Below are positions 6,039-35,047 of a stretch of DNA of 64,000 bases, in pieces. This stretch comes from an uncultured Campylobacterota bacterium. Its GTDB lineage: Bacteria > Campylobacterota > Campylobacteria > Campylobacterales > Sulfurovaceae. Made by a program: the position numbers and the translations under genes. How positions within the stretch are numbered: the stretch's first letter is position 1; every line of letters starts with the position of its first letter. The notes below the pieces were generated by a model, which saw only the letters and a list, made by a program, of their open reading frames with translations, was not told the DNA's origin and did not search any database. The stretch spans positions 248,001 to 312,000 of the forward strand of contig CAKZQQ010000005.1 of the NCBI GenBank assembly GCA_937141405.1, given 5' to 3'.

Positions 6039-7517
6039 ATGAAAAAAATAGCGGTTTTGTTTTTTGTTTTGTTTCAGTTTTCTTTTTCCGAGATTCCCGA
6101 AGGCGTGTATTGCCCTGAAGATAGCTATTGGAAGCTGACTAGCGTTTCTCATAATTCGAGTTATGAATATTGTTCTTTTGTTGCTATTGAGGCTGGAATT
6201 GATGTTTGTGTAGCAGAAGTGGAGGAGAAATATTATTTGTCTACTTATAGAGTCTTTAGTTCTACAACTTATCAATATCGCTTGCAAGATAATTTTACAT
6301 ATAAGGATAACACTTCACATACACGCGATGTTAGTTATGACATATTGACAGAGACTTATAATTGTACTCTTATCCCTACTTGCGATGAGGGTAAATATTT
6401 TAACACTACAACTGAACAATGTGAAGTATCTTGCCCTGCTGGAACTATCCGTAATGGAGATACTTGCGTATGTGAAGATTTTACAAAATATTTTGATGCT
6501 AATACTTCAACTTGTATATCGCCATGTGATCCGACTGATGAGCCTTTGCCAATCATCCCTTATCTTGATGATCCAAAGAATGCATGTTCAAGTGGTAATT
6601 GTCCTGTAGAACCAATGTGTCATGAAGATGACTTTTTACCTTGTGAAGACGGTTGGCATAGTCTCAATCTCATAATCGTCGATTGCGAAGGTGTGACTGT
6701 TGAAGATGTTCATTTTTGCTCGTCTGTACCTTGCAGTGATATATATGCCCCTAATGGTGATGATAATTCTACTGATACGCCTCAAGATTGTAGTTTGGGT
6801 CAATATTACGACGCATGCCATGGTAAGTGTGTAGATTCTTGTCCCCCCGGTACTGTGTGGAGTAATAAGACTGAACAATGTGAGTGTTGGGATACTCCAC
6901 CACCTACTGATGATAATAATACTGATGATAATAATACTGATGACACTGATGATGATGTTTGTTCAGAGGGTGAGCACTGGGACAATTTTTGGCAAGCTTG
7001 TGTATCTGATAGTGAGGACGGTAGCGACAGTGACGGTGGTTCTACTACTACTATTGACAATAATGATACTGATGATAATGCTACTGGCGACGACGGCACT
7101 GGCGACGACGATAATGCTACTGGAGATACTGGCGACGGTACTGGCGACGACGATAATGCTACTGCTGAATATGAAGACGAAGCGCAAAATATGAAAGATG
7201 AGGCTGAAAAAGAGTATAAGGACACCATGGGCGAATTCGCTCGTGTCTTAGACGGTCACCTTGATGTTTTTCGCTCGCTTGGTACAGAATTTTCGAATAT
7301 TTTTATTATTTCCGCTCCTAATGTAAGTGCTGGTGGTACTTGCATTTTTAGTACGACTGCATACGGCAAAACTTTTAAAATTGATCTAGGATTTGCCATT
7401 AAATTCGCTCCTTATTTTAAAATGATACTTAATTTAATTCTTGCATTTCTCATAATTAGGCTATATGTTTTTATTTTTAGAGACATTTCAAATAAATTTT
7501 TTGCGGGGGGTGATTAA
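6039..7517 (+). CDS. pIII-like minor coat / adsorption protein
   Basis: 492 residues from the ATG at 6039, chosen because AAGGA lies 8 bp upstream and a Sec signal peptide begins there (MKKIAVLFFVLFQFSFS). The mature protein has Cys-rich repeated modules (for example CDEGKYFNTTTEQCEVSC, CSLGQYYDACHGKCVDSC, CSEGEHWDNFWQACV), then two Asp/Asn/Thr/Gly-rich low-complexity linkers (coding about 6898-6957 and 7020-7165). A conserved-looking membrane-anchoring C-terminal domain with two hydrophobic stretches follows. This mirrors Ff pIII: receptor-binding domains, flexible linkers and a C-terminal anchor. The receptor is unknown. The sequence is unlike Ff pIII, so the call rests on layout and position before a pVI-like gene. 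Confidence 0.82.
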   Translation: MKKIAVLFFVLFQFSFSEIPEGVYCPEDSYWKLTSVSHNSSYEYCSFVAIEAGIDVCVAEVEEKYYLSTYRVFSSTTYQYRLQDNFTYKDNTSHTRDVSYDILTETYNCTLIPTCDEGKYFNTTTEQCEVSCPAGTIRNGDTCVCEDFTKYFDANTSTCISPCDPTDEPLPIIPYLDDPKNACSSGNCPVEPMCHEDDFLPCEDGWHSLNLIIVDCEGVTVEDVHFCSSVPCSDIYAPNGDDNSTDTPQDCSLGQYYDACHGKCVDSCPPGTVWSNKTEQCECWDTPPPTDDNNTDDNNTDDTDDDVCSEGEHWDNFWQACVSDSEDGSDSDGGSTTTIDNNDTDDNATGDDGTGDDDNATGDTGDGTGDDDNATAEYEDEAQNMKDEAEKEYKDTMGEFARVLDGHLDVFRSLGTEFSNIFIISAPNVSAGGTCIFSTTAYGKTFKIDLGFAIKFAPYFKMILNLILAFLIIRLYVFIFRDISNKFFAGGD

Positions 7518-29911: not shown

Positions 29912-30973
29912 ATGAAACTTCTCTATCCATTAAAAATCAACAATGATTTTGCCTTCAACTCTTCATCGCGGGACTTCATCGTCACTGAGATACCGCTCTA
30001 CGAGTTTAGCGGTGAGGGCGAACATCTCGTGCTCAAAGTCCGCAAAAAAGAGCTCACGACATGGGAGATGATATTGCGATTTGCAAAACATCTCGGTATC
30101 GACAAAAGAGATATCGGTTATGCAGGGCTCAAAGATAAGCACGCTATGACGGTGCAGCATATCTCTATCCTTGCAAAACATGAAGAGAAGCTGAACGGTT
30201 TTGATGATGAGCATATCAAGATACTAAGCACCACAAGACACAATAACAAGATACGCACGGGGCATCTCAAAGGCAATCGCTTTGACATTCGACTCAAAAA
30301 AGTACTTGGTGTGAGTCGTGATAAGCTAGACTCTTCGCTTGAGTGGATAAAAGAAAATGGTGTGCCAAACTACTTTGGAGTACAACGCTTCGGCATAGAG
30401 GGAGATAATTATCTCAAGGGCAAAGAGATCATCGACGGGAAGCTCAAGATAAAAGATAGAAAGATGCGCGATTTTCTCATAAGCGCCTATCAGAGCTATC
30501 TTTTCAATGCATGGCTCTCTAAAAGGGTGGAATTGAGCCTTCTAGTGGACGAATTTAGCCAAAAAGAGTGTGAGGGTATACTCGGAGTGGCTGAGGGGAC
30601 TTTTGAGGGCATAAAGGGGCAAAAGAACTTCTTTAAGCTCCTTAAAGGCGATCAGATGATGCACTATCCGCATGGAAAGCTCTTTGAAGTAGAGGATATC
30701 GCAAAAGAATCGGAGCGATTTAGCACGAGAGATATCTCGCCTACAGGTCTACTAAGCGGGAAGCGAGCGACGCATGCCACAGCAAATGCATTTACGCTTG
30801 AAGAGCCTTTTATCGAGCCTATCAATGCTGATGGGTCGCGTAGATATGCGTGGATATGGGCGGAAGATATCAAGAAGAAGTATATAGCTGAAAAAGCACA
30901 TTATGAGCTTAGCTTCACACTACCTAAAGGCTGCTACGCCACCAATGTGCTGGATGTGTTGAGAGGAAATTAA
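29912..30973 (+). CDS. truD: tRNA pseudouridine(13) synthase TruD
   Basis: 353 residues. The TruD signature is clear: GYAGLKDKHAMTVQHIS with the catalytic Asp in KDKHA, plus FDIRLKK, NYFGVQRFG and the long insertion domain. It modifies U13 in tRNA-Glu. It is divergent from gltX (95 bp apart). REP hairpins follow its stop. Confidence 0.95.
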   Translation: MKLLYPLKINNDFAFNSSSRDFIVTEIPLYEFSGEGEHLVLKVRKKELTTWEMILRFAKHLGIDKRDIGYAGLKDKHAMTVQHISILAKHEEKLNGFDDEHIKILSTTRHNNKIRTGHLKGNRFDIRLKKVLGVSRDKLDSSLEWIKENGVPNYFGVQRFGIEGDNYLKGKEIIDGKLKIKDRKMRDFLISAYQSYLFNAWLSKRVELSLLVDEFSQKECEGILGVAEGTFEGIKGQKNFFKLLKGDQMMHYPHGKLFEVEDIAKESERFSTRDISPTGLLSGKRATHATANAFTLEEPFIEPINADGSRRYAWIWAEDIKKKYIAEKAHYELSFTLPKGCYATNVLDVLRGN

Positions 30974-30983
30974 TGTTTTCTTA

Positions 30984-31004
30984 TTCTCATGCTTTGCGTG
31001 GGAA
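30984..31004 (+). repeat. REP-like hairpin, copy 1
   Basis: Variant of the 21-bp palindrome: TTCTCATGC-TTT-GCGTGGGAA. One base off the perfect copy at 31037. It lies 11 bp after truD. Confidence 0.8.
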
Positions 31005-31036
31005 TACATACTCTTTTTCTCTCGTTCCTTTTCTCG

Positions 31037-31057
31037 TTCCCATGCTTTGCGTGGGAA
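31037..31057 (+). repeat. REP hairpin, copy 2 (left of RAYT gene)
   Basis: Arms TTCCCATGC and GCGTGGGAA around TTT. Same sequence, inverted, lies right of the transposase at 31693-31713, and the same orientation recurs at 61007-61027. Confidence 0.9.
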
Positions 31058-31074
31058 TGCATATTTTTAAAATT

Positions 31075-31142: not shown

Positions 31143-31676
31143 ATGGGTAGAAGTAGATATAAGATATATGAATCGACGCATCCTCATTTTATGACATGCA
31201 CTGTGCTACACTGGATACCTATATTTACCAAGGTAGAAAGTGTCGATATAGTTCTTGATAGTTTGAGATATTTACAAAAAAGTGACAATCTTAAGATTTA
31301 TGCTTATGTGATATTGGAAAATCATATTCATATTTTGGCTCAAAGTGATGATACAGGAAAGAGCATGGCGAAGTTTAAAGCTCATACGGCTACAGCTCTC
31401 ATAAGATTGCTTCAAGATAAAAATGCTAAACCCATTTTGGATCAATTGGCATTTTATAAAAAGGCACATAAAGCAGATAGGCAGTATCAATTTTGGCAAG
31501 AGGGAATTCAAGCAAAACTCATACAAAGTGATGCGATGATGAAATCTAAAATAGACTATATACATCAAAACCCAGTTAAAAGAGGATATGTGGATAAGGC
31601 TGCTTATTGGCGTTATAGTTCAGCTAGAGATTATGAGGGAACAAATGGTCTTTTAGATATTGAGAGGTTTTGGTAG
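31143..31676 (+). CDS. REP-associated tyrosine transposase (RAYT)
   Basis: 177 residues, Y1 HUH transposase of the IS200-like superfamily. The HUH motif is His-Ile-His in LENHIHILAQ; the nucleophile tyrosine is in DYIHQNPVKRGYV, a motif typical of RAYTs. It is flanked by REP hairpins in inverted orientation (31037 and 31693), the arrangement expected for a RAYT that recognises REP sequences. These enzymes are usually domesticated and spread REPs rather than themselves. There is no strong ribosome site. Confidence 0.9.
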   Translation: MGRSRYKIYESTHPHFMTCTVLHWIPIFTKVESVDIVLDSLRYLQKSDNLKIYAYVILENHIHILAQSDDTGKSMAKFKAHTATALIRLLQDKNAKPILDQLAFYKKAHKADRQYQFWQEGIQAKLIQSDAMMKSKIDYIHQNPVKRGYVDKAAYWRYSSARDYEGTNGLLDIERFW

Positions 31677-31692
31677 GATATATCAATATGCA

Positions 31693-31713
31693 TTCCCACG
31701 CAAAGCATGGGAA
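31693..31713 (-). repeat. REP hairpin, copy 3 (right of RAYT gene, inverted)
   Basis: Exact reverse complement of 31037-31057, 16 bp after the transposase stop. Confidence 0.9.
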
Positions 31714-31746
31714 TGAGCTAAAATGTGGGTTTTTGGCTGTCAAACT

Positions 31747-32568
31747 TTATTTACTACCTAGACTTCCACAATAATCTAGCTCAATATCTATTTCATCTTG
31801 AATAATTTTTATAAATTCCTCCACATTCGCCGCGTAAGCTTTTAAAACTTCCAAAACATTCAATTCAAAATCAACTCGCCAAAATTGACCATACATACCT
31901 TGAAAATAAAATATACCCCACCCATTAATTCCTTCTTTGGATGGAGTTACTGTTGTGTAGCCAAATCCACCAGTTTGAGCTGAACCAAAATCTACTGTTT
32001 CCCAGTCTTCTGTTTTTTGGACATAATTTGGAGAAATTAATCCCATATATGGGATTAATTTAAAACCTTCAATTTTTCCTCGTGCCACAACGCAGTGTCC
32101 ACCTACTGTTGGGAATTGAGAATTTGCAATGACATTTTCGAAATTATATTGTAATTGAAATCTGTTGTTGCCATCTAATTTTGAAACATAGTTCGCTGCA
32201 TCAGCATCACCTATCCAATAAATACCATCATCTTCTAAGATAGAAATTTTACCTTCTGATATTTTTGTAATCATAGGCTTTTCCCCAGATTGGGCTAACA
32301 AAAAATCTACTTTGTCGTCAAAGCTTTTGCATATTTGTTTTGCTAAAAGTTTTATATTGCCTTTGTGCCCTTGTGTATATATGGCATATAACCTACTATG
32401 TGCAATTTTTCCCGCAGCACCTGAGTATGCGATAGCTATATTTTGGTTAAGAAAGAAAATTTTTAATCCATGAAATGGTTTTTTTCCTGTTTTTTCTGGG
32501 AAAGACAATAAAGTATCAGCCATCAAGAAAACTTCATTATTATCTATGATAGCGATACATAAACTCAT
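31747..32568 (-). CDS. Proteasome-like Ntn hydrolase homologue
   Basis: 273 residues. The first 55 residues have the pattern of a proteasome/HslV beta subunit: after Met removal Ser1, then a hydrophobic strand, NNEVFLMADT with Asp17, Lys35 in GLKIFF and a Gly-rich IAIAYSGAAG strand. In proteasome subunits Thr1, Asp17 and Lys33 form the active site, so this looks like an N-terminal serine variant. The C-terminal 80 residues are an extra domain. No partner ATPase or second subunit is encoded nearby. It lies in the RAYT/toxin-antitoxin island. The fold call is by motif reading only; the substrate is unknown. Confidence 0.6.
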   Translation of the reverse strand: MSLCIAIIDNNEVFLMADTLLSFPEKTGKKPFHGLKIFFLNQNIAIAYSGAAGKIAHSRLYAIYTQGHKGNIKLLAKQICKSFDDKVDFLLAQSGEKPMITKISEGKISILEDDGIYWIGDADAANYVSKLDGNNRFQLQYNFENVIANSQFPTVGGHCVVARGKIEGFKLIPYMGLISPNYVQKTEDWETVDFGSAQTGGFGYTTVTPSKEGINGWGIFYFQGMYGQFWRVDFELNVLEVLKAYAANVEEFIKIIQDEIDIELDYCGSLGSK

Positions 32569-32650
32569 ATGATTAATACCCCATAATCTATTTTCTATAA
32601 CATCAAGTATATATAAAATTGCTCAATCTTGCAAGGGAAGGGGTAGTGTT

Positions 32651-32708: not shown

Positions 32709-32978
32709 TTATCGAAAAAGTTGTGAATGTGTACCTATGCGGAGTAGTTGAAGCGTTTGCTCTTCTACGCGGTAAATCACAAGCAGATCACCGCTTATAT
32801 GGAACTCCTTTGTGTCTTGATATTCACCGCTAAGAGCATGATCTCTTGATGTTGGTGGCAATTCTTCTTCATAGAGTAAAAGAGAGATATACATAAAAAG
32901 TTTAGCGGTGTTGGTAGGATTGAGTTGTGCTTTCTTTAGGTCTTTATTGAAAGATTTATGGATAGCAATACTAAGCAC
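32709..32978 (-). CDS. YafQ-family toxin (mRNA interferase)
   Basis: 89 residues from a GTG at 32978 that follows AAAGGA and overlaps the antitoxin stop by 8 bp; a TTG one codon earlier is an alternative. RelE/ParE-superfamily features: HKSFNKDLKKA at the start, RDHALSGEYQ in the middle and VIYRVEEQTLQLLRIGTHSQLF at the end, close to YafQ. YafQ cuts mRNA in the ribosome. The gene pair is a type II toxin-antitoxin system. Confidence 0.88.
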   Translation of the reverse strand: MLSIAIHKSFNKDLKKAQLNPTNTAKLFMYISLLLYEEELPPTSRDHALSGEYQDTKEFHISGDLLVIYRVEEQTLQLLRIGTHSQLFR

Positions 32979-33237
32979 CAAGTTCCTTTTTAAGCTCATC
33001 GAGGGATATTTTTGACATATTTTTACCTTCTCTCGCATCTTCTATGGCTTTCAAGGTCTCATCATTTGGTATCTTGACCTCAAAAGGGATGCCTTTTTCC
33101 ATGACGGCTTGTGATAGGAAAATATTGAAGGCATCGCTTAATCCAAGCCCGTATTGTTTAAATATCTCTTTTGCTTTCTCTTTCATCTCTGCATTCAAAT
33201 AGACATTTGTTCTTGATCTTTGTGTTGTTGAAATCAT
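32971..33237 (-). CDS. DinJ/RelB-family antitoxin
   Basis: 88 residues from the ATG at 33237 behind AAAGG. The N-terminal ribbon-helix-helix segment RTNVYLNAEMKEKAKEIF is followed by the DinJ signature LGLSDAFNIFLSQAV and IPFEVKIPN. It would bind and neutralise the toxin encoded directly downstream and repress the operon through the palindrome in its promoter. Confidence 0.9.
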   Translation of the reverse strand: MISTTQRSRTNVYLNAEMKEKAKEIFKQYGLGLSDAFNIFLSQAVMEKGIPFEVKIPNDETLKAIEDAREGKNMSKISLDELKKELGA

Positions 33238-33266
33238 TTTATGACCTTTACGATTTATTTGATTCC

Positions 33267-33295
33267 ATTTTAACACACAATGTGTGTTTTGTCAA
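33267..33295 (-). promoter_or_regulatory. Promoter and operator of the toxin-antitoxin operon
   Basis: On the minus strand: TTGACA (33295-33290), a 17-bp spacer, TAAAAT (33272-33267). The palindrome AACACAC-AAT-GTGTGTT at 33272-33288 fills the spacer, an ideal position for a ribbon-helix-helix antitoxin to block RNA polymerase. Confidence 0.8.
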
Positions 33296-33883: not shown

Positions 33884-35047
33884 ATGAATAATAAAAAGAG
33901 AAAAATCGCCATCATCGGTGCAGGTGCATCGGGTATGATGTGTGCGATTACGGCCAAAAAGCAGAATAGTGAGCTTGACATTACGATATTTGAAAAGAAC
34001 GACAAGATGGGCAAAAAGATACTTGCAAGCGGTAACGGTAGATGCAACATCATCAACACAACATTTGATGAGACTAACTACCACGCGGGTGATTCGCTCT
34101 TTGTGAAAAAAGCATTGGAGCAGTTCTCTTTCGCGACTTTTAAGAAGTTTTGTCTTGATATCGGTTTGGTTTTAGATGTTAAAGAGGATGGCAGGTGCTA
34201 TCCGCTAAGCAATGAAGCAAAATCGGTCGTGACGCTTTTTAGCAAAGCTTTGAGCGAGCAGGGCGTACAAGTGCGCTTAGAGCATGATGTGGGGCAGATA
34301 CGCCATGAAAAAGGTGTGTTTTTTGTAGATGATGAGCCTTTTGATACACTTGTGGTAAGTAGTGGACTCGGTGCAGCAAGTCAGCTTGGCAGTAGTGAGG
34401 ATGGTTTGGACTTTGCGCGGAGCTTTGGGCATACTGTAGCGCCGACATTTCCCGCTTTGGTAGGGTTAGAACTAGCAGATGCCACAAAGCGCCTCTTTGG
34501 TGTGAAGATGCGAGCCAAAGTGAGCCTCTATATCGATGGACTCTTCAAAGAGGAGGCGTTTGATGATATCCTCTTTACAAATTACGGCATATCGGGATTT
34601 GCTATACTTGATATCAGCACTGCTGCTTCGTATGCTCTGAGTTTAGGCTCTAGTGTGTATATCGAGATTGATTTGCTCCCCCAATTTGATAGAAATGCAC
34701 TCTTTACGCTCCTAAGAAAGGTTGACGGTGATCTTACAGGGCTATTACCCGCAAAGCTTGTAGATATCGTCAGTTCAAAAAGCATCAAAGAGACTACCCA
34801 TAACATCCAACATCTACGTTTTGATGTGAGTGCTACGCATGGGTTTGACCATGCAGAAGCGAGCGGGGGAGGCGTCTTAACCTCCCAGATAAATCCGCAC
34901 ACGATGGAGTCTCAAAAGATCAATGATCTATATTTTGCGGGTGAAGTTTTAGATGTGGTTGGAGAAAGAGGCGGGTACAATTTTGCTTTTGCTTGGGCAA
35001 GCGGTTACAATGCCGGAAAGTCTTTAGCGGGGGAAATCATCAAATAG
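33884..35047 (+). CDS. HI0933/BaiN-family flavoprotein oxidoreductase
   Basis: 387 residues. An N-terminal FAD-binding GAGASGMMCAI motif (residues 11-21) is followed by GKKILASGNGRCNIINT, the signature of the YhiN/HI0933 family, and a C-terminal GGYNFAFAWASGYNAGKSL flavin-closing segment. The reaction of this widespread family is not established. Confidence 0.88.
   Translation: MNNKKRKIAIIGAGASGMMCAITAKKQNSELDITIFEKNDKMGKKILASGNGRCNIINTTFDETNYHAGDSLFVKKALEQFSFATFKKFCLDIGLVLDVKEDGRCYPLSNEAKSVVTLFSKALSEQGVQVRLEHDVGQIRHEKGVFFVDDEPFDTLVVSSGLGAASQLGSSEDGLDFARSFGHTVAPTFPALVGLELADATKRLFGVKMRAKVSLYIDGLFKEEAFDDILFTNYGISGFAILDISTAASYALSLGSSVYIEIDLLPQFDRNALFTLLRKVDGDLTGLLPAKLVDIVSSKSIKETTHNIQHLRFDVSATHGFDHAEASGGGVLTSQINPHTMESQKINDLYFAGEVLDVVGERGGYNFAFAWASGYNAGKSLAGEIIK

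Follow-up and report, generated by a model that had tools for sequence, protein, structure and literature searches.

The gene at positions 31747-32568 of the window (the whole 64,000-nucleotide stretch of DNA that was analysed) encodes P0001, a protein of 273 aa. We consider it fairly probable that P0001 is a divergent proteasome-like Ntn hydrolase with Ser1 as its nucleophile, that it acts independently of an unfoldase, and that it is carried as an accessory cassette in a RAYT/REP hotspot, where it probably serves conflict among mobile elements, phages and their host. Four kinds of evidence favour its assignment to the proteasome-like Ntn proteins: the rank of the protein in a genome-wide PF00227 search, HMM and hhalign comparisons, an alignment-based structural model and invariant Asp17, Lys35 and Gly49 residues. 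The initial annotation gave the coordinates without a strand; they correspond to a real open reading frame on the minus strand. The coding sequence and the parts of it considered below are as follows:

31747..32568, minus strand: coding sequence of P0001 (273 aa, ATG start), the candidate Ntn hydrolase of proteasome-like type
32563..32565, minus strand: AGT codon of Ser1 (second codon), the candidate nucleophile by sequence, Thr in 18 of 18 aligned relatives
32515..32517, minus strand: codon of Asp17 of the mature protein, invariant in 19 aligned sequences
32461..32463, minus strand: codon of Lys35 of the mature protein, the equivalent of proteasome Lys33, invariant in 19 aligned sequences
32419..32421, minus strand: codon of Gly49 of the mature protein, within 'YSGA', the equivalent of proteasome Gly47 at the oxyanion hole, invariant in 19 sequences
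32059..32250, minus strand: residues 107-170, IGDADA to TVGG, covering S8-H3-H4-S9-S10, with homology outside the motif used for selection
31750..32046, minus strand: C-terminal extension, residues 175-273, of which 175-239 are predicted at pLDDT < 50, with helices at 238-247 and 249-269

There is no in-frame ATG, GTG or TTG upstream of the start codon, and M1 lies in exact register with M1 of 18 relatives, all of which begin with Met-Thr in our alignment A5; the N-terminus is therefore well placed. Met before Ser or Thr is normally removed by methionine aminopeptidase. Numbered without it, the mature protein has Ser1, Cys3, Asp17, Lys35 and Gly49 (the last three are D18, K36 and G50 when Met is counted), and the spacing of Ser1, Asp17 and Lys35 proposed in the initial annotation agrees with the sequence. 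A perfect 28-base palindrome is present within the coding sequence at window positions 32034-32061 (AAATTAATCCCATA/TATGGGATTAATTT).

As a single sequence, P0001 has no match in Pfam, NCBIfam, PHROGs or PADLOC, and none of the single-sequence database searches gave a significant hit. The PF00227 (Proteasome) model was run over the whole genome, so that proteins were ranked without any prior selection. The genome carries a separate hslV, whose product ranked first (E 7.5e-22), and P0001 ranked second with E 0.135 and 11.9 bits, below the curated cut-off of 22.4. A degenerate motif, M[ST]xC[IV][AG]-(9-12)-[AGS]D[ST]-(12-19)-K[hydrophobic][FY], was written as a DNA pattern for scanning. It was found once in the window and in 0 of 100 shuffles, which argues that the residue spacing in P0001 did not arise by chance. 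The scan of ~85,000 genomes with this motif yielded 39 ORFs with a length of 100 aa or more. Judged by inspection of the sequences, the majority are evidently proteasome-like, and three of ten such ORFs scanned against Pfam reached the Proteasome cut-off. The best relatives found by the motif constitute a family starting with MT(L/I)CIAW (L052, L055, L077, L103, the viral L121, and plasmid or prophage proteins such as WP_104769329.1 and WP_050559183.1).

Because the N-terminal motif had served to select these relatives, the remainder of P0001 was tested apart. An initial HMM test had relied on relatives selected by the motif and was circular for the N-terminus; it was discounted and redone without this part. 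Residues 107-161 matched a four-member profile of relatives with P 8.5e-6 in hhalign. With a seven-member HMM, residues 100-273 scored above 5000 of 5000 shuffles and residues 60-273 ranked third; when the set was extended to 14 relatives, the majority gathered independently of the motif, residues 60-273 scored above all 5000 shuffles as well. Residues 1-170 aligned to 15 diverse proteasome-like relatives with P 6.4e-7 and a probability of 92% (hhalign), and two other proteins of the window, taken as controls against the same relatives, reached 0.1-0.3%.

AlphaFold2 without an alignment gave no usable model of P0001 (pLDDT 34). When supplied with the 19 sequences of A5 (P0001 and 18 relatives), it predicted an S1-S10/H1-H4 Ntn fold for residues 1-172, at a pLDDT of about 90 across most of this region. 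The elements follow in the order S1 3-9, S2 12-18, S3 37-39, S4 44-49, H1 53-65, H2 72-83, S5 88-93, S6 99-104, S7 107-111, S8 115-120, H3 122-130, H4 136-148, S9 159-165 and S10 168-172. The best Foldseek matches of the model were 20S proteasome subunits and HslV, with E of about 1e-9 to 1e-8 and TM scores, normalised to the target, mostly of 0.60-0.69; its matches in the viral library were HslV-like and proteasome-like proteins of phages. The proteasome-like fold and strand order suggested at the outset are borne out by this model and its matches. Since A5 consists of proteasome-like proteins, the model cannot count as independent evidence of homology. It is conceivable that P0001 is not an Ntn protein, that its N-terminal motif is coincidental and that the model merely follows the proteasome-like alignment, as the missing matches in Pfam, NCBIfam, PHROGs and PADLOC and the low pLDDT of the single-sequence prediction would allow. 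We regard this as very improbable: the C-terminal region beyond the selection motif independently matches the relatives, and PF00227 places P0001 second in its genome without prior selection.

None of the 19 sequences in alignment A5 deviates at Asp17, Lys35 or Gly49, and position 1 is Ser in P0001 only and Thr in all 18 relatives. Thus, Ser1 is the exception, and the conservation expected of the three residues in the initial annotation held for Asp17 and Lys35 and failed for Ser1. The DNA pattern used for finding relatives accepted all Thr codons and only two of the six Ser codons, so that Ser may be somewhat under-counted at this position. The triad proposed for the proteasome consists of Thr1, Lys33 and Asp17 (PMC4792962), and Fuchs et al. 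2021 (PMC8665760) define the proteasome-like family by the set Thr1/Ser1, Asp17, Lys33 and Gly47. A T1S mutant of the yeast beta5 subunit is still active, with 40-45% less activity (PMC4792962); by analogy, Ser would be a workable nucleophile in place of Thr.

Because its relatives all have Thr at the position of Ser1, the activity of P0001 could be reduced or lost. The protein might then have a proteasome-like fold without being a hydrolase, either as a decayed or repurposed binder comparable to the proteasome alpha subunits or as a transpeptidase or ligase comparable to connectase, the member of the proteasome-like family which ligates instead of hydrolysing (PMC8665760). The replacement of an otherwise invariant Thr1 and the precedent of ligation within the family are in keeping with this idea. 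However, P0001 has kept Asp17, Lys35 and Gly49, the yeast T1S mutant retains activity, and the two-helix insertion between S3 and S4 of connectase is absent from P0001, in whose model a short turn joins these strands. We therefore hold a non-hydrolytic role to be unlikely.

In its fold, its T/S1-D17-K33-G47 residues and its lack of an AAA+ partner, P0001 is like the families of Fuchs, Alva and Lupas 2021 (WPH, PMI, GPH, PHD, FC and others). That study described 22 further proteasome-like families that have neither a co-occurring AAA+ partner nor a genomic context pointing to function (PMC8665760). P0001 belongs to this proteasome-like family, and not to HslV or Anbu. With HslV and the 20S beta subunit it shares the fold and the catalytic residues; it differs from them in Ser1 and in length, its 273 residues exceeding the approximately 175-200 of these proteins, as had been stated for HslV from the start. 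Membership in HslV was rejected because P0001 falls below the PF00227 cut-off and no HslU-type gene is nearby. Anbu has a similar M[T]xC[IV][AG] start, D17 and K, and membership there was rejected too, the hhalign match to an Anbu-like alignment being 4% probable and confined to residues 1-25.

The MT(L/I)CIAW family resembles P0001 in having a hydroxyl residue straight after Met, D17, K, the oxyanion Gly and no propeptide. Both also have IG[DS]..A before H3 and [TV][VI]GG before S9, in register, together with an extended C-terminus and mobile-element contexts. They differ at position 1, which is Ser in P0001 and Thr in the family, and in the C-terminal extension, which in P0001 is of another kind and longer. 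P0001 shares only about 20% identity with the family and lacks the S3/S4 insertion of roughly 15-25 residues that the family shows in A5. The C-terminal region had been called novel; that of P0001 is indeed longer, but extended C-termini are common to the relatives too. The S3/S4 insertion and the taxonomic spread of the MT(L/I)CIAW family recall PMI-6, which we take as a lead only. This family overlaps PHROG 16034, whose function is unknown.

Searches for orthologues of P0001 were negative. The single-sequence search found nothing in the family to which the genome belongs or in about 400 genomes of its phylum; tblastn against phages and plasmids and exact-peptide scans of genomes and viral contigs also found nothing. 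Two viral scans that used alignments of P0001 with artificially varied copies, included only to widen the pattern, revealed no viral homologue, and the DNA motif scan of viral contigs gave chance matches only. Profile searches found no close orthologue in 347 genomes of its own phylum or in 248, 299 and 125 genomes from the phyla of a Sphingobacteriales, a Thiotrichaceae and a Shouchella genome, respectively; apart from family members found here and there, they gave only Anbu and a BPH-like gene. Two weak matches, L112 and L113, are methyltransferase-like by sequence and were rejected as homologues. As these searches yielded no close orthologue, conservation of the P0001 gene itself gives no indication of its function.

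The P0001 gene has truD, a RAYT transposase gene, a YafQ/RelB pair, a DUF4282 gene and an HI0933-like gene as its neighbours, and the features of the region are:

29912..30973, plus strand: truD, the left flank of the hotspot, conserved in the sister species G006
30976..31068, no strand: two copies of a REP-type palindrome upstream of the RAYT gene
31143..31676, plus strand: RAYT gene, for a Y1 or IS200-like transposase of the REP-associated tyrosine type (177 aa); its Pfam match of E 0.006 does not reach the cut-off, and the flanking REP palindromes lend support
31685..31724, no strand: REP-type palindrome downstream of the RAYT gene, where homology with the sister species stops
31718..32581, no strand: segment swapped in G006 for unrelated DNA with two other small genes
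32709..33038, minus strand: YafQ toxin (PF15738, E 8e-28)
32971..33276, minus strand: RelB/DinJ antitoxin (PF04221, E 2e-14)
33884..35047, plus strand: HI0933-like flavoprotein gene, the conserved right flank of the hotspot

The sister species G006, whose truD is 97% identical and whose DNA identity is about 90%, keeps truD-RAYT on one side and DUF4282-HI0933 on the other. Positions 31718-32581, which hold exactly the P0001 gene, are replaced there by 1.3 kb with two small genes. The G006 cargo (L135:4668-6489) consists of a membrane-type ORF of 142 aa, a DUF2846-like lipoprotein of 149 aa and, in place of the YafQ/RelB pair, two small ORFs that by sequence look like a BrnT/BrnA toxin-antitoxin pair. 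In the congener G009, the HI0933-like gene directly follows truD, representing an empty site. The P0001 gene is absent from 174 of 174 other genomes of its family that were searched. The swap in G006, the empty site in G009 and this absence indicate that the gene forms one accessory cassette of a hotspot in which cargo is exchanged. It is AT-richer than its neighbours (GC3 of 0.22 vs. 0.38 ± 0.07 (sd) for 28 long ORFs), and it is a single, horizontally acquired gene. The mobile-looking island noted initially is confirmed and strengthened; the reported lack of an ATPase partner also holds, no AAA+ gene being seen in the immediate neighbourhood. The RAYT-associated palindrome has only about five copies in the 1.75 Mb genome at no more than one mismatch, four of them on this contig, among which is one at C5:309007-309027.

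The nearest relatives of P0001 often reside on mobile DNA. The MTLCIAW family was found in 43 of 5,426 complete E. coli genomes, where the prophage copies adjoin intS or tail-fibre genes and the ICE copies lie directly downstream of a conjugative transfer ATPase. Conjugative plasmids from E. coli, Enterobacter and Vibrio also carry it, as does one viral contig. On a Vibrio nigripulchritudo plasmid, the gene is located between PDC-M27A/B/C genes (PADLOC) and a CBASS cyclase with its Cap15 effector, which are followed by a pair of SLATT and UG17 reverse transcriptase (DRT) genes. In a Chlorobiaceae MAG, a gene of this family follows a type ISP restriction gene and a gene of unknown function on the same strand, and on a Bacteroidetes contig another adjoins an AIPR gene. 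The counts of such contexts are small and have no matched background, and the relatives are distant from P0001.

Several side observations were made at these loci. On the V. nigripulchritudo plasmid (NZ_AP027051.1, L142:6990-7080), the proteasome-like gene is annotated as starting at 7043, which cuts off its catalytic N-terminus. Homology already sets in at 7001 with ATC ACT, six bases past an AGGAG, which suggests a rare ATC start codon. A RAYT/Y1-transposase-like ORF (L145:10506-11546) lies ~1.6 kb downstream of a proteasome-like gene of the relative family, and a transposase adjoins P0001 too, possibly by coincidence. Proteins of about 410 aa adjoin the proteasome-like gene in two cases, between the restriction and Ntn genes (L140:10894-12117) and after the Ntn gene (L120:7335-8567); neither has a PADLOC or Pfam match, and they are possible partners of the proteasome-like gene.

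Because the nearest relatives are often found on phages, conjugative elements and plasmids, and some of them beside anti-phage systems, P0001 may be a small conflict enzyme. A defence or conflict role, as raised in the initial annotation, is a hypothesis suggested only by these contexts of distant relatives. Against such a role, the genes next to P0001 are a transposase and a toxin-antitoxin pair and form no defence system, and six other copies of the MTLCIAW or related proteasome-like families (L077, L103, L078, L107, L141 and L145) are found among housekeeping genes. No PADLOC model matches P0001 or any of three relatives. P0001 might instead be a working proteasome-like peptidase with a housekeeping, stress or processing role, for which the mobile DNA is incidental. 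The relatives among housekeeping genes agree with this, as do the 22 families of Fuchs et al. 2021, which show no function-suggesting context and no AAA+ partner (PMC8665760). However, the P0001 gene is rare and patchy (0 of 174 other family genomes), its site is a hotspot of cargo swapping, and prophages, ICEs or plasmids often carry its nearest relatives as cargo. We consider this alternative less probable.

A conflict-serving hydrolase would work as follows. Methionine aminopeptidase would expose Ser1 with no propeptide to be removed. By analogy with the chemistry of the proteasome, Lys35, oriented by Asp17, would activate the hydroxyl of Ser1, and the main chain around Gly49 would form the oxyanion hole. 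Because there is no AAA+ partner nearby and the C-terminal extension is long, P0001 most likely needs no unfoldase and acts on a limited range of peptides or proteins that are accessible to it, probably as a monomer or small oligomer rather than a gated barrel of the HslV type. Like its nearest relatives, it probably serves mobile element, phage and host conflict, and not housekeeping proteolysis. These features are best accounted for by a peptidase of mobile elements that is independent of an ATPase and narrow in its specificity.

The kind of protein described here is already known, since proteasome-like families without AAA+ partners were reported by Fuchs et al. 2021 (PMC8665760). What is new, as judged from sequence, is a member with a candidate serine nucleophile and without close relatives, together with the mobile-cargo and partly defence-island context of its nearest relatives, on which we found no earlier report in the literature. 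As a speculative extension, small ATPase-independent proteasome-like proteases could be an overlooked cargo shared by prophages, ICEs, plasmids and hotspots, acting as effectors against phages or plasmids, or as anti-defence factors of mobile elements, with P0001 as a serine-nucleophile offshoot; we hold this wider view to be doubtful at present. The proteasome-like family is large and most of its branches are without known function, and the relatives in E. coli prophages and ICEs and beside Vibrio plasmid defence systems provide a tractable test system. The Ser1 variant offers a natural test of why proteasomes have kept threonine.
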